DNA of 64,000 bases from Nitrospira sp. KM1 (GTDB lineage Bacteria; Nitrospirota; Nitrospiria; Nitrospirales; Nitrospiraceae), in assembly GCF_011405515.1 (NCBI RefSeq), contig NZ_AP022671.1, positions 3,658,001 to 3,722,000 on the forward strand. The letters are read 5' to 3'. Position numbers and translations under genes: made by a program. The notes beneath the pieces are model-generated. The model searched no databases. It was given only the letters and a program-made list of their open reading frames with translations, and had not been told where the DNA came from. Positions 4,476-52,134 of the stretch are shown in pieces; within the stretch, counting starts at the first letter, position 1; every line of letters begins with the position of its first letter.

Positions 4476-6653
4476 TCACAGGGAATCGAGCAGATCCCGT
4501 GAAACGAGACTGCGCCGTTCCTTGTGACTGATCATCAGTACGGCAAGTGAGCGGGCCTCCAGTTCGTACTGCTCTCCCCCCTTGAAAATGATCCTGACGG
4601 CACCATTGGTGGCCGTCACCGACGTATCGAGAGTCAACTGCCACCGCACCCCGCGCTTGTGGGCCGGCAGGGTAAATCTCAACGGCTCATGATGCGCATT
4701 GAGCAAGATCAGCAGGGTCTCATCGACGATCGTCCTGCCTTTGTCGTCCGTTTCCGTAATAGCATCTCCCGCCAGCCGTAAAGAGAGCGATCGCACGTAA
4801 CCCGCATTCCAGTCCTCGTCCGTCAATTCCTTGCCGTCGGGCCGGAACCAGGAGAGGTCTTTGACTTCTGATCCGCGTATATGCCGGCCCTGAAAGAACA
4901 GACGGCGGCGCAACACCGGATGGCTTTTGCGAAACTCGATGAGTTTCCGTACAAAGGTCAACAACTCCCGTTCGGCTCCGTTCAGCTTCCAATCGAACCA
5001 GCTGATTTCGTTGTCCTGACAGTAGGCATTATTATTCCCCCGCTGTGTCCGGCCAAACTCGTCCCCGCCGCAGATCATCGGGACGCCTTGGGAAAAGAGG
5101 AGCAGTGCGAAGAAGTTCCGCTTTTGGCGTGCACGCAGCGAGACGATGGCCGGGTCATCGGCCGGACCTTCCGTGCCGCAATTCCAGCTGGCGTTGTCGT
5201 CAGTTCCGTCTCGGTTATCTTCACCGTTGGCTTCGTTGTGTTTGTTGTCGTAGGAAACGAGATCATGAAGCGTGAACCCGTCGTGAGCCGTGAAGAAGTT
5301 CACGCTTGCATAGGGCCGGCGCCCGCTCGTGCTGTAGAGGTCGCTGCTGCCCGTCAAGCGATAGGCGAGCTCAGCCACTTGGCCTCCGTCGCCCTTGACG
5401 TACCGACGGATCACGTCGCGATACTTCCCGTTCCATTCGGCCCAGCCGACGGGGAAATTTCCTACTTGGTATCCGCCCTCGCCGACGTCCCACGGTTCCG
5501 CGATCAGCTTGACCTGCGACAGCACCGGATCTTGATGGAGGATGTCGAAGAATGCGCTCAGTCGATCGACAGCATGGAGTTCGCGCGCGAGCGCAGACGC
5601 CAGGTCGAACCGGAACCCGTCCACGTGCATGTCCATCACCCAGTACCGGAGACTGTCCATGATCAATTGCAGCGTCCGTGGATGCGTCACGTTCAAGGTA
5701 TTGCCGCAGCCGGTGTAATCCATATAGTACCGGCGGTCTTCATCGACCAGCTTGTAGTAGGCCGCATTGTCGATGCCGCGAAAGCAGAGCGTCGGGCCCA
5801 GATGATTCCCTTCGGCGGTGTGATTGTAGACGACATCGAGGATGACCTCGATGCCGGCGCTGTGAAACGTCTTGACCATCGTCTTGAATTCCCTGACATG
5901 GCGGCCACGGACAGGCGACCGTGCATACCGGATGTCGGGGGCGAAAAATCCGATCGAGTTATATCCCCAGTAATTGTTGAGTCCGCGGTCGATCAAATGT
6001 TTGTCGCTGACAAAATGATGCACGGGCAGCAGTTCCACCGCCGTGATTCCAAGGTCCAGCAGGTGGTCGATGACGGCCGGTGTCGTCAGTGCGGCATAGC
6101 TTCCGCGGGTATCCTGCGGCACATCGGGGTGGCGTGCCGTAAACCCCTTGACATGCATCTCATAAATGATCGTACGGTCCCAGGGGGTGTTGAGCTGACG
6201 ATCGCCGCCCCAGGTGAATGCCTGGTCGATGACCACGCATTTGGGGATGCTGCCGGCATTGTCTCTCGTGTCGAAAGAAAGATCGCCCGAGGGGGCGCCG
6301 ATCTGATATCCGAACATGGCGTCGGACCATTTGATCGTTCCGGCGATAGATTTCGCATAGGGGTCGATCAGAAGCTTGTGCGGGTTGAAGCGATGACCTT
6401 CCTCGGGCGCGTACGGCCCGTGCACACGATAGCCGTAATGCTGGCCGGGCCAGAGGCCCGGGAGGTAGGCATGCCAGATCTGATCCGTCCGTTCTTCCAT
6501 GCGCACGCGGAAAGATTCCGTGGTCGAATCAGGACCATCAAACAGGCAAAGGTCTACGGCCGTTGCATTTTCGGAGAAGAGCGCAAAGTTCACACCCTCT
6601 CCATTCCATGTGGCGCCCAGTGGATACGGTTTTCCAGGCCAGACTCTCATCAT
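4476..6653 (-). CDS. glgX: glycogen debranching enzyme GlgX/TreX
   Basis: A 725-aa GH13 enzyme that hydrolyses alpha-1,6 branches of glycogen or maltodextrin. Start: the ATG at 6653 gives the family-typical opening MMRVWPGKPYPLGATW, while a longer ORF reading would add an unrelated leader. A CBM48-type domain (about residues 8-100) is followed by the catalytic barrel. Visible catalytic residues are Asp350 in VDGFRFDLA, Glu386 in LIAEPWDVGEGGYQVG and Asp458 in FFTAHDGFTLHDLVSYD. It is divergent from treZ with 115 bases between. With treZ and treY it completes the TreX-TreY-TreZ route from glycogen to trehalose, releasing linear maltodextrins for TreY. Confidence 0.95.
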   Translation of the reverse strand: MMRVWPGKPYPLGATWNGEGVNFALFSENATAVDLCLFDGPDSTTESFRVRMEERTDQIWHAYLPGLWPGQHYGYRVHGPYAPEEGHRFNPHKLLIDPYAKSIAGTIKWSDAMFGYQIGAPSGDLSFDTRDNAGSIPKCVVIDQAFTWGGDRQLNTPWDRTIIYEMHVKGFTARHPDVPQDTRGSYAALTTPAVIDHLLDLGITAVELLPVHHFVSDKHLIDRGLNNYWGYNSIGFFAPDIRYARSPVRGRHVREFKTMVKTFHSAGIEVILDVVYNHTAEGNHLGPTLCFRGIDNAAYYKLVDEDRRYYMDYTGCGNTLNVTHPRTLQLIMDSLRYWVMDMHVDGFRFDLASALARELHAVDRLSAFFDILHQDPVLSQVKLIAEPWDVGEGGYQVGNFPVGWAEWNGKYRDVIRRYVKGDGGQVAELAYRLTGSSDLYSTSGRRPYASVNFFTAHDGFTLHDLVSYDNKHNEANGEDNRDGTDDNASWNCGTEGPADDPAIVSLRARQKRNFFALLLFSQGVPMICGGDEFGRTQRGNNNAYCQDNEISWFDWKLNGAERELLTFVRKLIEFRKSHPVLRRRLFFQGRHIRGSEVKDLSWFRPDGKELTDEDWNAGYVRSLSLRLAGDAITETDDKGRTIVDETLLILLNAHHEPLRFTLPAHKRGVRWQLTLDTSVTATNGAVRIIFKGGEQYELEARSLAVLMISHKERRSLVSRDLLDSL

Positions 6654-6768
6654 TGGTCGTTTCCGTGTTGAATAGGGTTGCGTACAGGGACACCTACGTA
6701 TAACCATACCGATAGGCTTGTGCAAGGTCGTGAATGGTGCAGAAAAGTCCATTGAAAGGAACAATCGA

Positions 6769-8646
6769 ATGTCGCAGCGATGGGCACTGGATATTGGAGC
6801 GAATCAGGTAGGGGATAACGCGACGCGATTCCGGGTCTGGGCTCCGAAAGCCAATAGGGTCGCGGTCAAGATTGAAGCAGATCATCGGCAGGTCGTTCCC
6901 ATGACCGCCGACGGACAGGGACATCACGAGGCGCTCGTCCAGGGAGTGACGACCGGCTCGCGGTACCGATATGTTCTCGACGGTTCGCTCGAACGGCCCG
7001 ATCCCGTATCGCGGTTCCAGCCGGACGGAGTCCATGGCACGTCGATGGTCGTCGATCCTGGAGAGTTTCCCTGGACCGATCGCGAGTGGAGAGGGCTCTC
7101 ACTCAAAGAACTCATCATGTATGAGCTGCATGTCGGCACGTTCACGAAGGAAGGGACCTTCGACGCCGTCATTCCTCATCTTCCCTACTTGAAAAACACG
7201 GTAGGCATCACGGCCATCGAACTCATGCCGGTTGCACAGTTTCCCGGAGGGCGAAACTGGGGGTATGACGGAGCCTTTCCGTTCGCACCGCAATCCACCT
7301 ATGGAGGACCGGAAGGGCTGAGGCGTCTGGTGAATGCCTGCCATGCGGAGGGAATGGCCGTCATTCTGGACGTGGTCTACAACCATATGGGACCGGAAGG
7401 AAATTATCTGGGAGACTTCGGGCCCTATTTTACCGACCGCTATCGGACGCCATGGGGTTCGGCCATCAACTACGACGGACCGGACAGCGACCCCGTCCGG
7501 CATTATGTGGTGAGTAACGCCGTCTACTGGGTGACCGAGTATCGAATCGACGGGCTCAGGCTCGATGCCGTGCATGGAATCTATGACTTCAGCGCCAGAC
7601 ATGTCTTGAGAGACATCGCTTCGGCAGTGCATGTTCAAGCCAAGGCGTTGAACCGGCAGATCGTGGTCATCGCTGAAAGCGATTTGAACGATACCCGGGT
7701 CATTGATGCGCCGTCGGCCGGTGGTTTCGGACTCGACGGGCAATGGAACGATGATTTCCATCACTCTCTGCGCGTCGTCCTTACGGGTGAACAGAAGGGG
7801 TATTACAGCGACTTTCAGGGATTGCATGATCTGTCGACGGCCGTGCAGAACGGATACGTCTATAACGGCAAATATTCCCCGCACCGGCGCCGCCGTCACG
7901 GGAATTCATCCACCCATTGCCGGCCGGCGCAATTCGTCGTCTTCGCGCAGAATCACGATCAGATCGGTAACCGTGCCGAAGGCGATCGTTTAAGCGCACG
8001 GATCCCGAGCGAGGCATTGAAAGTGTCGCTGGCGCTGACCCTGCTCTCGCCTCAGATTCCGATGCTGTTCATGGGCGAGGAGTACGGGGAAACAGCCCCT
8101 TTCCAATACTTCATCGAACACAGTGATCCGGAATTGATCGAAGCAGTCCGGCGGGGACGGCGACGGGAGTTTGCGCTGTTCGGATGGGATCCGGACCAAA
8201 TTCCAGACCCGCAGGCACCCAGTACGTTCGAACGGTCCCGCGTGAATCGGAGTGGTTTGGACGCCGTCAAGCATGGCCTCTTGCGATGGACGCATGCGCT
8301 CATTGAAGCCAGGAAGGCCCATCCGGTCCTTGCCGCCGGTGAATCGGCCACCCCGCTCCATTCAGTGCGCGCCATGGAAGAGGAGAGGGTATTGATCGTG
8401 CACCGGTGGGCCGAGTCCGAACGTCATGCCGTGCTGATTTTCGGCTTCAATGCCGCTCCCGTCGCGATCACGATCGACAAGCCCGAGGGACCCTGGCATC
8501 TGCTGCTGGATTCCAATTCGAGGGAATTCGGGGCGGACGAGCAAGGCCGCCCTGCGCCGGAGTTGAGCGTCACCTCGGGTGGCACATCACTCACACTTTC
8601 CCCCTCTACCGTTCTGGTGTATATCTCGCCTGATCCCCGCATGTGA
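6769..8646 (+). CDS. treZ: malto-oligosyltrehalose trehalohydrolase TreZ
   Basis: A 625-aa GH13 enzyme that cleaves maltooligosyl-trehalose to free trehalose. The ATG at 6769 has AAAGGA at 6755-6760. An N-terminal CBM48-like domain (about 17-95) precedes the barrel. Catalytic residues in view are Asp266 in DGLRLDAVHGIYD, Glu303 in VIAESDLND and Asp397 in FAQNHDQIGN. The family-typical segments GGRNWGYDG (160-168) and MGEEYGE are present. It is followed by mscS, a 52-aa ORF and treY on the same strand, suggesting one transcript. Confidence 0.95.
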   Translation: MSQRWALDIGANQVGDNATRFRVWAPKANRVAVKIEADHRQVVPMTADGQGHHEALVQGVTTGSRYRYVLDGSLERPDPVSRFQPDGVHGTSMVVDPGEFPWTDREWRGLSLKELIMYELHVGTFTKEGTFDAVIPHLPYLKNTVGITAIELMPVAQFPGGRNWGYDGAFPFAPQSTYGGPEGLRRLVNACHAEGMAVILDVVYNHMGPEGNYLGDFGPYFTDRYRTPWGSAINYDGPDSDPVRHYVVSNAVYWVTEYRIDGLRLDAVHGIYDFSARHVLRDIASAVHVQAKALNRQIVVIAESDLNDTRVIDAPSAGGFGLDGQWNDDFHHSLRVVLTGEQKGYYSDFQGLHDLSTAVQNGYVYNGKYSPHRRRRHGNSSTHCRPAQFVVFAQNHDQIGNRAEGDRLSARIPSEALKVSLALTLLSPQIPMLFMGEEYGETAPFQYFIEHSDPELIEAVRRGRRREFALFGWDPDQIPDPQAPSTFERSRVNRSGLDAVKHGLLRWTHALIEARKAHPVLAAGESATPLHSVRAMEEERVLIVHRWAESERHAVLIFGFNAAPVAITIDKPEGPWHLLLDSNSREFGADEQGRPAPELSVTSGGTSLTLSPSTVLVYISPDPRM

Positions 8647-43205: not shown

Positions 43206-43601
43206 ATGAATTACCGATGGGTACTCTGTGGACTCTGTTTTTCGATCGGCCTTGCCGGCTGTGGAGGCGGAGGCAGGGCTGAGATCAAGGATGAACGGTT
43301 GACGGTGGGCAGAGTACAAAGCGAAATCAAGGTCGGCATGCCGTCGGCCCAGGTCGTCGAGATTCTGGGTTCTCCCAACATCGTCACGACCGACGAAAAG
43401 CGGCGGGAGGTATGGATGTATGACAAAGTCTCGACCGACCGGGTGAACACCAGCAGTTCCTCCTTTGGCACCTTGATCATCCTGGGCAAGAATTCACAGG
43501 ACACCTCGAGCTCTCAGCGGCAACGCACGCTCACGATCATCATCAAGTACGATGAAGACAAGAAGGTCCGCGATCTTGCCTATAACTACACACAGTTCTG
43601 A
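43206..43601 (+). CDS. BamE/SmpA-like small lipoprotein
   Basis: A 131-aa lipoprotein (start MNYRWVLCGLCFSIGLAGCG, Cys19 lipidated). Residues 35-80 match the BamE-type fold: GRVQSEIKVGMPSAQVVEIL followed by GSPNIVTTDEKRREVWMYDK. BamE assists outer-membrane protein assembly and similar domains occur in other envelope lipoproteins. The Ser/Gln-rich stretch SSSSFGTLIILG and the tail LTIIIKYDEDKKVRDLAY follow. GAGGGGGT precedes the ATG. The next gene overlaps its end by 50 bases. Confidence 0.78.
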   Translation: MNYRWVLCGLCFSIGLAGCGGGGRAEIKDERLTVGRVQSEIKVGMPSAQVVEILGSPNIVTTDEKRREVWMYDKVSTDRVNTSSSSFGTLIILGKNSQDTSSSQRQRTLTIIIKYDEDKKVRDLAYNYTQF

Positions 43602-44196
43602 TCATGCCTCCCGATCAGATCGGCTCGCCGGCCGGGCGGCTTGCTTCGCGTGGGCCGCGGGGCTGACACTGCTGGCCGGGTGCATCCAAGAGACGAAACC
43701 CGACGAACTCTTCCAGCTCACACCGGAAAGCTTGCGCAACCGGGCGATGTCCATTCGCACGTTCGACACGGCATCCGAGACCGAATTGCTGTCGGCTTCG
43801 GCGGCTGTCCTCCAAGACTTGGGTTACCAGGTCGAGGAGAGCGTGCACGAAGTCGGCTATTTCCGTGCGGTCAAGGAGCGGCCCGCCAGCGAGCATGCCC
43901 ATGGCCTGCGGCGGAACATGTTTTTCTTTTTCCCGCTGAGGGTCGAGGTTGTACCGGTCGCTCTCCACCAGCAGCTGGTTGCGAATCTGGTCACCAAACC
44001 CATCAACGCTGAAGGTACGAAACAACAGGTAAGAATCAGCTTCTACCGCATCGTGTGGAAGGGAGACGGTCACGTCAATCGGGAATACATTCCCCCGGGC
44101 GGACAGTACATGGAGATGATCCGCGATCCGGAAATCTATCAACAGTTCTTCGTCAAGCTGTCCAAGGCGGTGTTCTTGGAAGCGCACGATATGTAG
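43552..44196 (+). CDS. tandem envelope lipoprotein, paralogue 1 of 3
   Basis: A 214-aa protein that overlaps the BamE-like gene by 50 bases. The start ATG has no Shine-Dalgarno, so coupling is probable. The lipobox LTLLAGC lies at about residues 37-43. The mature part shares with the next two proteins the core IRTFDTASETELLSASAAVL, QDLGYQVEESVHEVGYFRA and the tail DPEIYQQFFVKLSKAVFL. A central insert with a hydrophobic FFFFPLRVEVV stretch is unique. No function known. Family members next door indicate gene duplication. Confidence 0.72.
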   Translation: MKTRRSAILPITTHSSDHASRSDRLAGRAACFAWAAGLTLLAGCIQETKPDELFQLTPESLRNRAMSIRTFDTASETELLSASAAVLQDLGYQVEESVHEVGYFRAVKERPASEHAHGLRRNMFFFFPLRVEVVPVALHQQLVANLVTKPINAEGTKQQVRISFYRIVWKGDGHVNREYIPPGGQYMEMIRDPEIYQQFFVKLSKAVFLEAHDM

Positions 44197-44214
44197 CCCG
44201 AGGAGCCGGAATCT

Positions 44215-44676
44215 ATGCGGGGATCTGCGCTGAATCGACACCGGGGATGGGGAGCCGCAATCGTCCTCTTGGGACTGTTGTACGGATGCGCGATGTCGGA
44301 CCCGTCACAGACTCTGCTCGCACCGACCCAGGCTCAGTTGAAGATCCGGAATTATCAGACTCGTATCTTTGACATGAACGACCGTAATTTTGCGATCCGG
44401 TCCGTCATCGGCGCGCTGCAAGACTTGGGATTCATCATCGAACGCGCCAACGACGCCCTCGGCCTCGTGACGGCCGCCCGTTTCGCAGAGCCGAATTACT
44501 ACGACGTCCTCATGCTTACGGTGACCGTACGGCAGCTCAATGAGACCCAGCTCACGGTGCGGGCCAATGCGATTTACAACAACCGGCCGATCGAGGATCC
44601 CAAGGTCTATCAAAATTTCTTTGCCTCTCTCGAACGATCGTTGTTCATAACCAAGGATAGCCCAACTGCACCGTGA
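44215..44676 (+). CDS. tandem envelope lipoprotein, paralogue 2 of 3
   Basis: A 153-aa lipoprotein (lipobox LLYGC, Cys25). GAGGAG lies before the ATG; it begins 18 bases after paralogue 1. The shared core is LKIRNYQTRIFDMNDRNFAI, ALQDLGFIIERANDALGLVT and EDPKVYQNFFASLERSLFI. It is the shortest of the three and has only a small central region (LMLTVTVRQLNETQLTVRAN), so it probably shows the minimal fold. Confidence 0.72.
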   Translation: MRGSALNRHRGWGAAIVLLGLLYGCAMSDPSQTLLAPTQAQLKIRNYQTRIFDMNDRNFAIRSVIGALQDLGFIIERANDALGLVTAARFAEPNYYDVLMLTVTVRQLNETQLTVRANAIYNNRPIEDPKVYQNFFASLERSLFITKDSPTAP

Positions 44677-44698
44677 AAGGGACGAAGGGAATCATGTC

Positions 44699-45265
44699 AT
44701 GACGGTTTCCGTGGCATACCGGATGGTCGCTGCCTTGGCCTGCCTCGCGATTCTTTATGGCTGCAACCGTGACGAGCTTCAGGGGAACGGGTTGGACTGG
44801 CGGGACCAGGTCTGGCTTTCCGAGACGAGCCAGCTCAAGATTCGGGCCGCCCAAACCAGAATCTTCGACACAACCGATCGCCTGAAACTGCTCCAAGCGG
44901 TCGTGTCGACCATGCAGGATTTGGATTTCAAAGTCGACGTCCTTGACCAGGACCTGGGAGTCGTTTCAGGCAAGAAGTTCGTCGAAGTCGAGACCGATTA
45001 CCTGGGCGACCGGGTCTCGTACTATATGTACCAGCCTGATACCTTGTTGTTCCTTGCCAGAAGCTACCGGTCGTGGGGACCGTTCTATTACCGCAGCAAC
45101 CTCGTGCGCTTCACTGGAACGATCCGTCCGCGCGGCGAAACTCAATCACTTGTGCGCATCAGTGTCCAGTATTCCATGCGCGCGCTCGAAGATCCGAAGC
45201 CCTATCAAGAATTTTTCCGTACGCTCGAACAGTCGGTTTTCCTGCAAGGGCATGAGGAGTCCTAG
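44699..45265 (+). CDS. tandem envelope lipoprotein, paralogue 3 of 3
   Basis: A 188-aa lipoprotein (lipobox AILYGC). AAGGGA lies seven bases before the ATG; it begins 22 bases after paralogue 2. It repeats the core LKIRAAQTRIFDTTDRLKLL, TMQDLDFKVDVLDQDLGVVS and EDPKPYQEFFRTLEQSVFL. The longer middle part (YYMYQPDTLLFLARSYRSW and FTGTIRPRGETQSLVRIS) is partly aromatic. Close tandem spacing indicates a single operon with the BamE-like gene. Confidence 0.72.
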   Translation: MTVSVAYRMVAALACLAILYGCNRDELQGNGLDWRDQVWLSETSQLKIRAAQTRIFDTTDRLKLLQAVVSTMQDLDFKVDVLDQDLGVVSGKKFVEVETDYLGDRVSYYMYQPDTLLFLARSYRSWGPFYYRSNLVRFTGTIRPRGETQSLVRISVQYSMRALEDPKPYQEFFRTLEQSVFLQGHEES

Positions 45266-48622: not shown

Positions 48623-48647
48623 CTTGGCGGTTGACACAAAGGATCGA

Positions 48648-51600
48648 ATGAAAAAGTCATCAACGGGGCAGTTGCAGTATTCCCCCAGCGACCTCATGAC
48701 CTACCTGGCCTCGCCGTTCGCCTCCTGGATGGACCGGTATCATCTGGAATGTCCCGGGTCCATAACTCCGGACGAACTGACGGAGGACGATAAGCTGATC
48801 GCGAGGACCGGCGCCGAACACGAACGGGCGGTGCTCGGCGACATGAGGACAGCCGGCAGGGCGATCGTCGAAGTGTCGACGCGCAACTTCGCCCAAGCTC
48901 AGGCGCAGACACGATCTGCCGTGACTGCGGAGGCTCCCGTCATCTACCAGGCGGCACTGTGCGACGGTCCGTTTTTCGGATTCGCCGACTTTCTTTTGCT
49001 CGACGAGCGTGGCCTGTATCAGGTCTGGGACACCAAGCTGGCTCGCTCGTCCAAGCCCTACTATGCCATCCAGCTCTGCTGCTATTCCGACATGCTCAGT
49101 TCCGTGAGCGGCCGGTTGCCGCAGACCTTTGGCGTGATCTTGGGGAGCAAGGAAAGGGTCATGTTCAGGCTGGAGTCGTTCATCCATTACTACCGCCATG
49201 CGAAGAAGACCTTTCTGGATCTGCAAGACCGGTTCACCGGGAATCTCAGGAATCGTCCGCTGCCGTTTCCCCGCGCCGAACATGGCCGATGGACGTCACA
49301 TGCCGACCGGTTCTTTCGAGATCGCGACCATCTGGTCCTCGTGGCCAACATCACCTCGAGCCAGATCAGGAAACTCGCGAAGGCCGGCATTCACACCACG
49401 GCCCGCCGACGTCTCAGGAACGAAGATTCCCGGGCTCGACTCGACGACGCTCGAAAAATTGGCAGGCCAAGCCCGCCTGCAACGGCGGACGGGCGAAGCC
49501 AGGCACGCCGACCCGCAAGCGCCGCCGAGCCATGAGGTGTTGCATCACGTGGGGCCAAACGGCGAGGCGGTCGGACTCGCCGCGCTGCCGCCCGGAGATC
49601 CGGGCGACGTCTGGTTCGACATGGAGGGCTACCCGCTCGCGCCTGGCGGGCTGGAATACCTGTTCGGCATCTGCGTTCGAGATCACAGCGGAGGACAATA
49701 CCGCTTTCAAGACTGGTGGGGGCACGACCGGGGCGGGGAGAAGCTGGCGTTCGAAGGATTCGTGGATTGGGTGTTCGATCGCTGGAAGAAGCATCCGGGC
49801 ATGCACATCTATCACTATGCACCCTATGAAGTGAGCGCGGTCCGGCGGTTGAGCACCCGCCACGACAGCCGGCAGGATCAGGTCGATGACCTGTTGCGGA
49901 ACAATGTATTCGTCGATCTCTATCAGATCGTCCGGCGCGGGGTGCGCATCGGCGAAGAGAGCTATTCGATCAAGTCGGTCGAGCGCCTCTATCGTCCGCA
50001 ACGGGCCACACGGGTAGCAACCGCCGCGGATTCGATCGTCGCCTATAGCCGGTGGATCGAAAGCGGAGAATCCGGCGACTGGAAGCAGAACGGCATCCTC
50101 AACGGCATCCGCGATTACAACGAGGACGATTGCCGGTCCACCGCCGAGTTGACCGCCTGGTTGAGAGACGCAGCCAGAGCTCATGGCATCGTCCCGCCTC
50201 CTCCGACAGAGCCCGTCCAGGAGGAACAGCGGGAGATGGCACCCATCGTGATCGACCGGTTGCAGACCGTCGGAGATCTCAGAAAGCTGCAGAACAGCAC
50301 GGCCGCGGCGCTGGCCGACCTCGTAGAGTTCCACCGGCGCGAGCAGAAACCGATATGGTGGCGCATGTTCGACCGGGCGGCGGCTGCTCCAGACCAGCGG
50401 CGCGATGATCCGGGATGCATCGAGGGCATTCAGTCTGACGGACCTTGCTCGACGGAGAAAAAGTCGCTCGTCCAGGGCTATGAGTTCGATCCTGCGCAGG
50501 AATGCAAGCTGGCCAAAGACGACCAGGTGAGATTCGCGCATAATCTTGACGCCACGTTCACGCTGACTGAAATCGACGCAGCAGCCGGTCGCCTGAAGTT
50601 AAAAATCGGTCAGCAGAGTCTGAAAACCAAATGCGAGGGTTTGTTCTACAAGGAGGGATCACTCATCCACAACGAATTTATCTCGCCGGCCGGCATTCCG
50701 GACGCATTGGCTGATCTCGCCGCTTCGCATCTTCACGGCGCATTGCCGAAGTCCGTCACGGCGTTGTTGACTCGGCAGCCTCCGGCCGCACGCATGCAAC
50801 ATGAAGCGGAGACAACTATTGATGCTGCCGTACGCATCGCCAGGGGGATGGATGGGGGTTGTCTCGTCATCCAGGGACCGCCCGGTACGGGAAAGACCTA
50901 TGCCGCTTCCCGGGTGATCGTTGCGCTGCTCGAAGCGGGGAAACGAATCGGCATTGCCTCGAACAGCCATAAGGCCATCGGCAATCTGTTGAAGGCATGC
51001 GGCGAGGCGCTGAGAGAGCAAGGCGGCAAGCTGGAGGGCCTGAAGGTCGGAGGGGAGTGCGACGAGCAGCTTCATCAGGCGAACCCGGAATTGGTGCACA
51101 TTCCCGGCAGCGGAGATGCGAAAGGCCGTTACAAGTCCGGAGTGGTCGGCGGCACGGCGTGGCTCTTCAGTCGCGGCGAATGGATCGACGGCCTCGACTA
51201 TCTCTTCATCGACGAAGCGGGACAGGTCACGCTCGCAAATGCCGTGGCCATGGCAAGAAGCGCCAAGAATCTCGTGCTCCTCGGCGATCAGATGCAGCTT
51301 GAACATCCCGTTCAAGGGTCGCACCCCGACGATGCCGGCCTGTCTGTGCTGCAGTATGCCCTCAAGGATATGTCCGCCAGCTTGCCGGATGTGCCGGTCT
51401 TTCACGCGGTCGTTCCGTCGGATTACGGACTGTTTCTCGGTGAATCCCGTCGCATGCACCCGTCTGTCTGCCGATTCATCTCGGAAAGCATGTACGACGA
51501 ATGTCTCAAGTCTCATCCTGATTGCGCCAGGCAGCAGATCGACCGAGTCCTGAACCGGGCGAACCTCATCCTCAAAGGGAACGGCATCGTCCTCAGCCCG

Positions 51601-52134
51601 GTCGAACACGAAGGGAACGTCCAGCAGAGCGTGGAGGAGGTCGAAAGGGTCAAAGCGATCTATGAAGAGATGTTTGGCCGCCGCTACACCGGCAAGGACG
51701 GCAAGACGAGACCGCTGGCGCTCGAGGACTTTCTGTTCATCGCGCCCTACAACGCGCAGGTGCGTGCGCTGCAGGCCGCGCTTCCCGCTGGAGCCAGGGT
51801 CGGAAGCGTCGACAAGTTCCAAGGGCAGGAGGCGCCGGTCTGCATCCTTTCTCTCTGTTCGAGCTACGGGGAATACGGCTCGCGTGGCCTGGCGTTTATC
51901 TTGGATCGCAACCGCATCAACGTAGCCGTGTCGCGCGCCCAATGTCTTGCCGTCGTCGTGGCAGACCCCCGCATCGCCGGCTCGATCCCGTCCTCGCTGG
52001 AAGAAATGATGCTGCTCAATCTGTTCTGCAAACTGCAGGATGCGTCAGGAAGCGAAAGGGAATCAGGGATGGCTGCGTTCGAGCACATTCCGGATGCCGG
52101 CCTGCAAACGGAATTCTGGCCAGCCCGCAACTGA
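48648..52134 (+). pseudogene. TM0106-type nuclease fused to superfamily 1 helicase, interrupted by one frameshift
   Basis: Two overlapping reading frames together encode one protein of about 1161 aa. Frame A (48648 to about 49403) carries a PD-(D/E)xK nuclease: start with YSPSDLMTYLASPF, FGFADFLLLDERG and VWDTKLARSS with IQLCCYSDML. Frame B (from about 49405) has an RNase H-like part (DVWFDMEGYPLAPGGLEYLF, YNEDDCRSTAELTAWL) and the helicase: Walker A QGPPGTGKTYAA (near 50872-50900), DEAG box LFIDEAGQ, LLGDQMQLEHPVQGS, GESRRMHPSV and VDKFQGQEAPV with INVAVSRAQ. Joining needs a one-base skip in GCCCGCC (49401-49407). The total length 3487 equals three times 1162 plus one. AAAGGA lies before the ATG. 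A sequencing error or a true break cannot be separated here. Confidence 0.85.

Follow-up and report, generated by a model that had tools for sequence, protein, structure and literature searches.

A patchily distributed operon of a BamE-like lipoprotein and paralogous helix-grip lipoproteins, with a possible role at the outer-membrane assembly machinery

What might a tight row of lipoprotein genes do when its first member resembles the BAM subunit BamE and the remaining ones match no named family? We met this question in the genome of Nitrospira sp. KM1 (Nitrospiraceae; 4.5 Mb, single contig), in a stretch of 64,000 nucleotides referred to here as the window. A preliminary description of the window had reported a BamE-like lipoprotein followed by three tandem paralogous lipoproteins, and had proposed that they form a hetero-oligomeric envelope complex grown by duplication. 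Below, we follow this locus through its relatives, its predicted structures and its neighbours, and arrive at a tentative reading of its function.

Anatomy, paralogy and distribution of the operon

An ORF check confirmed four packed genes on the + strand at 43206-45265, here called E, P1, P2 and P3, each of which encodes a lipobox. E (43206..43601) encodes a BamE-domain lipoprotein of 131 aa with the lipobox LAGC, and P1 (43552..44196) the first of the three paralogous lipoproteins. The reported overlap of 50 bases between these two genes holds if P1 starts at 43552, but shrinks to 26 bases if translation starts at an in-frame TTG at 43576. P2 (44215..44676) encodes a minimal, single-domain protein of 153 aa, and P3 (44699..45265) a third paralogue, found in Nitrospiraceae, that carries a middle insert. 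On the same strand of the window, two overlapping ORFs (48624-49535 and 49198-52134) appear to be one gene interrupted by a frameshift at about 49.4 kb, which we take to be a nuclease/helicase of the TM0106 type. A relative of it lies no more than 5 kb upstream of the operon in two other MAGs (L059 and L080), and near the operon in Nitrospira L027 too, possibly by coincidence.

P1, P2 and P3 are indeed homologous: BLASTP aligned P2 with P3 at 4e-27 (34% identity) and P1 with P3 at 6e-12, and a profile-profile comparison of the P1 and P2 families gave a probability of 99.9% (E 2e-33). The three motifs that had been described as common to the trio fared less well and hold only in a loose form. 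RxFDxxxxxxLL occurs in P1 and P3 but not in P2; QDLGFxxE is strictly present in P2 alone, with QDLGYQVEE in P1 and QDLDFKVD in P3; and DPxxYQxFFxxLExSxF occurs in P2 and P3, while P1 has LSKAVF. In a tree of the family, every P1 grouped in a single clade (SH-aLRT 99) distinct from the P2 side, and the P1/P2 pair therefore predates its spread; P3 was placed outside the P1 clade, among the P2-side genes, its exact position being weakly supported. The tree shows one old P1/P2 split followed by later tandem additions.

Searches of Pfam, NCBIfam, PHROGs and PADLOC with P1-P3 returned no match beyond weak, chance-level ones; nor did querying the PDB by sequence with P3, P2 and P1 yield a credible match. 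A description of the operon was not found in the open-access literature searched. Taken together with the tree, the family models, which lack any match for P1-P3, bear out the view that the family is unnamed and has expanded by duplication. The four genes have a dN/dS of ~0.05-0.16 within the genus (about 0.05-0.07 for E), indicating that all four are maintained by purifying selection.

Searching 84,980 species genomes with E gave 403 confirmed loci, of which the best 80 were analysed. Among these 80 best-matching loci, E is followed by P1 and P2 in 70 (72 counting two plasmid loci), and most of the exceptions are cuts at contig ends. The same 80 span Pseudomonadota, Desulfobacterota, Nitrospirota, Methylomirabilota, Gemmatimonadota, Latescibacterota, Omnitrophota and others. 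A search for P3 in the genomes of 61 relatives gave 11 matches, and in all 11 the gene order was that of the window, with E, P1, P2 and P3 present. The recurrence of E-P1-P2, or more, across phyla, together with this constant order, places the linkage far beyond chance.

Around this arrangement, several variants were seen. Deep Nitrospirota and a plasmid-labelled Vibrio replicon carry a two-gene form, E-P, the linkage being kept even there; Nitrospiraceae carry E-P1-P2-P3; Azospirillum, Magnetospirillum and others carry P1'-P2'-E-P1-P2; and in Gemmatimonadota E-P1-P2 is joined by two more P2-like genes. The operon of the window is the local four-gene form of a widespread three-gene core, and P3 is a lineage-specific extra. 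Thus, the four-gene order on which the preliminary description built its unit is real, but the unit's core is E-P1-P2. Overall, the operon is present in 57 of 295 Nitrospirota genomes and in 6 of 274 from Gammaproteobacteria.

Resemblance of the subunits to BamE and BamC

E passes the Pfam BamE model (PF04355) narrowly, with 23.6 bits against a cut-off of 23.2, yet BamE was matched by all 30 of 30 E family members (best 1.2e-6), and in a PDB search with the E family profile it was the only credible family (E 4e-4). When the Nitrospira genome was searched in six frames, no BamE rose above the cut-off, and the best BamE-like gene was E itself, with 21 bits, just below it. On these profile matches, E may be classed as a divergent member of the BamE-domain proteins. 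BamE binds the POTRA-5 domain of BamA and BamD.

AlphaFold2 modelled P1 (pLDDT 81.4) and P2 (pLDDT 84.7, pTM 0.71) as one beta-alpha-beta4-alpha helix-grip domain after a signal peptide. When the P2 model was compared with the PDB by Foldseek, the top 13 matches were all BamC (E 1.2e-6 to 3e-4), and for the P1 model BamC took ranks 1 and 2, with a weak E of ~2e-3. VIA-align was less selective: its Z scores were 10.2 for Flpp3, 9.8 for the KA1 domains of AMPK and 9.7 for BamC (101 residues), and Bet v 1-like plant proteins tied with these. Helix-grip is a widely occurring fold, and in light of such ties with other helix-grip proteins the fold is sure and kinship with BamC only likely; by these models, P1 and P2 are likely relatives of BamC. 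Aligned by hhalign with the N-terminal domain of BamC, the P1 and P2 profiles fall in register only weakly, at a probability of 18-25% and P ~1e-3. The N- and C-terminal domains of BamC reach 7% against each other, and in 60 column shuffles each the P1 and P2 scores were never reached, but the unrelated E family also attains 13% against BamC.

BamC combines two helix-grip domains with a long N-terminal lasso, unstructured and wrapped around BamD. The P1 and P2 models lack a second helix-grip domain, and in place of the lasso they have only ~15-20 residues from the lipidated Cys to the first helix of the domain. The BamC family model, PF06804, was not listed for P1-P3 of the window at E <= 1, nor was it among the families listed for 74 relatives of P2 and 70 of P1. 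P1-P3 resemble BamC domains but fall outside the BamC family.

A self-contained cassette and its possible place at the BAM machinery

To what extent is the operon tied to other genes? Chromatium okenii (a gammaproteobacterium) and Ottowia beijingensis (a betaproteobacterium) share 1417 bases at 81% DNA identity, which comprise the operon alone, their flanks being unlike. The distance matrices of E, P1 and P2 are correlated (r 0.47-0.78; reached in 0 of 1000 permutations), the pattern that genes travelling together would give. Among 110 neighbouring proteins, no family occurred more than twice, so that the operon is autonomous, and, no other neighbour being conserved, any partner must be common to every diderm. 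BamA, BamD and other envelope genes were not linked to the operon. Candidate partners were considered and rejected: large repeat proteins adjoining the operon in Gemmatimonadota and Latescibacterota are lineage-specific, and an SDF symporter is found in Nitrospira only. The Azospirillum, Acinetobacter and Vibrio plasmid copies have no partner in common. The operon is a self-contained cassette, horizontally spread and patchy.

In E. coli, lipoproteins are sorted by the Lol system to the outer membrane when no Asp follows the lipid-bearing Cys. None of the 245 lipoproteins with a recognised lipobox has Asp at +2, which by this rule suggests outer-membrane sorting; the E and P lipoproteins would thus sit at the outer membrane.

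From these features, we arrived at the hypothesis that the operon encodes a self-standing complex of outer-membrane lipoproteins which attaches to BAM or modulates it, and we put the probability of this reading, in which complex, docking and effect are all inferred, at roughly 0.45. The complex would consist of one BamE-like E and the paralogous single-domain helix-grip subunits P1, P2 and, here, P3, anchored in the outer membrane and facing the periplasm. Most likely, E would dock on the conserved surface of BamA/BamD in the manner of BamE, while the helix-grip subunits would, like BamC domains, bind E, each other and either POTRA domains or substrates. As a result, the complex would alter the way in which outer-membrane proteins are assembled, or the choice of those that are. 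Acquired horizontally, it would serve as an optional extra rather than as a core part of BAM, which, judging from the patchy distribution, works without the operon. On anatomical grounds, the putative hetero-oligomeric envelope complex of the preliminary description fits the outer-membrane lipoprotein type, the fixed order, the joint spread and the BamE/BamC-like partners.

There is precedent for such contacts. In E. coli, BamC and BamE are reported to touch each other, both stabilise BamAD, and BamC domains can touch POTRA domains (PMC13067283). Moreover, lineage-specific BAM lipoproteins are a known theme, and other lineages may have unknown ones (PMC3359395).

Phage carriage, rival explanations and known systems

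The cassette is not confined to bacterial genomes: in IMG/VR, it turned up on only ~9 of 2.9 million viral contigs. By PHROGs annotation, E-P1-P2 follows a repressor gene on one of these (L167), near tail-fibre and baseplate genes, and on another (L169) the cassette lies near a large terminase gene. The E family also hits phrog_3135 at 7e-9 to 1e-12, a viral family that has no known function, indicating that BamE-like lipoproteins occur in other phages as well.

Some details of the phage copies are recorded here as observations. On a third contig (L166), the cassette sits between ORFs 819-2624 and 5777-6991, presumably an OLD-like ATPase/nuclease and a serine-protease-like protein, in a setting that resembles a cargo hotspot. 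All three contigs have a small, single-span companion ORF as a fourth gene (L169 3062-3670, L167 5429-5893, L166 12-467), which had no match in PHROGs on the two contigs tested. Their P1 proteins, of 242-255 aa in total, have a longer middle insert than most chromosomal ones (L167 4186-4947, L169 4368-5096, L166 4219-4986).

A bolder extension of the BAM-docking reading, which we hold to be speculative and rather improbable, is that of a mobile, self-contained and parallel BamE/BamC-like set, harboured by phages and by members of at least eight bacterial phyla, which would plug into the host's BAM and reprogram the choice of surface proteins that are assembled, e.g., so as to conceal phage receptors or to enable cargo outer-membrane proteins.

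Given the phage carriage, the main rival explanation is superinfection exclusion, in which the lipoproteins would bind, from the periplasmic side, a receptor outer-membrane protein or the machine that assembles it, thereby blocking later phages; temperate phages would spread the cassette and hosts would keep it for protection. The L167 and L169 contigs and the patchy, horizontal distribution fit this, and the lipoproteins Llp of T5 and Rtp45 do act on the periplasmic faces of outer-membrane proteins (PMC12685063). However, viral contigs with the cassette are rare, and tblastn of annotated phage records with one P2 and one E protein found no match. Among the 110 chromosomal neighbours just 2 are integrase-family proteins, with no phage enrichment, and matches to PADLOC defence families carry no weight (all at E >= 0.0098). 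Furthermore, E evolves slowly, with a mean identity of ~60% across phyla, unlike most exclusion genes. We consider this explanation unlikely, although BAM docking and exclusion could both be true if the operon alters receptor assembly.

Another improbable reading has the helix-grip lipoproteins bind lipid in a cavity. By Z score, KA1 and Bet v 1-like proteins match the fold as well as BamC does, and the self-contained operon includes neither a transporter nor BAM genes. Nevertheless, Foldseek ranks BamC first for both P1 and P2, and E, which is clearly BamE-like, has no such precedent.

The operon might also replace canonical BamC and BamE in Nitrospira, as the lineage's ordinary set of BAM subunits. 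In favour of this, no BamC match was found in the window genome, where E is the best BamE-like gene and scores below the cut-off in six frames. Yet many good-quality Nitrospiraceae genomes have no operon, and the operon coexists with BamC in 11 beta- and gammaproteobacterial genomes, usually alongside a strong canonical BamE in those tested. Given this coexistence, along with the single domain and missing lasso of the P subunits, the operon's proteins are neither canonical subunit. Replacement is very unlikely. Least credible of all are immunity lipoproteins against periplasmic lipid-targeting toxins, for although membrane-anchored, BamE-like immunity proteins of Lipocone toxins have been described (PMC12419801), these are described as fast-evolving whereas the operon's dN/dS is low, and no toxin gene recurs nearby while the gene order is fixed across phyla.

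BamC is placed in beta- and gammaproteobacteria only (PMC3359395). If the BAM-docking reading is true, a conserved, mobile BamE-like/BamC-like pair across many phyla would show that accessory modules of BAM travel as cassettes between bacteria and phages, and the operon would offer a small, tractable system for probing the role of BamC-type domains. If exclusion holds instead, the operon would be a multi-subunit kind of phage-carried outer-membrane barrier.

Among known systems, Llp and Rtp45 are small outer-membrane lipoproteins too, carried by phages and active from the periplasmic side, but they are single peptides (~6 kDa for Rtp45) that have neither a helix-grip fold nor an operon (PMC12685063). 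Flpp3 of Francisella is a single helix-grip lipoprotein and superposes on the P fold with the top VIA-align Z (2.6 A over 93 residues), yet it has only 9-11% identity to P and is described as unique to Francisella (PMC12723454). BamF (DUF3035) offers a parallel as a lineage-specific extra BAM lipoprotein of alphaproteobacteria, but has another predicted architecture, devoid of a helix-grip, and is present in all alphaproteobacterial species, whereas the operon is found in some bacteria (PMC3359395). BamC (NlpB, PF06804), ranked first by Foldseek for both P1 and P2, shares with the P proteins the helix-grip fold and the outer-membrane lipoprotein type; the P proteins differ in having a single domain, no long N-terminal lasso and no PF06804 match, and in occurring far outside the beta- and gammaproteobacteria. 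Finally, E has the lipobox, the small size and the domain core (GM...V...LG.PN...W.YDK) of BamE (SmpA/OmlA, PF04355), but it belongs to a separate subfamily that scores barely above the threshold and has a Ser/Gly-rich loop ahead of the last strand. In addition, its gene lies together with those of helix-grip partners, and in Pseudomonadota E occurs alongside canonical BamE.
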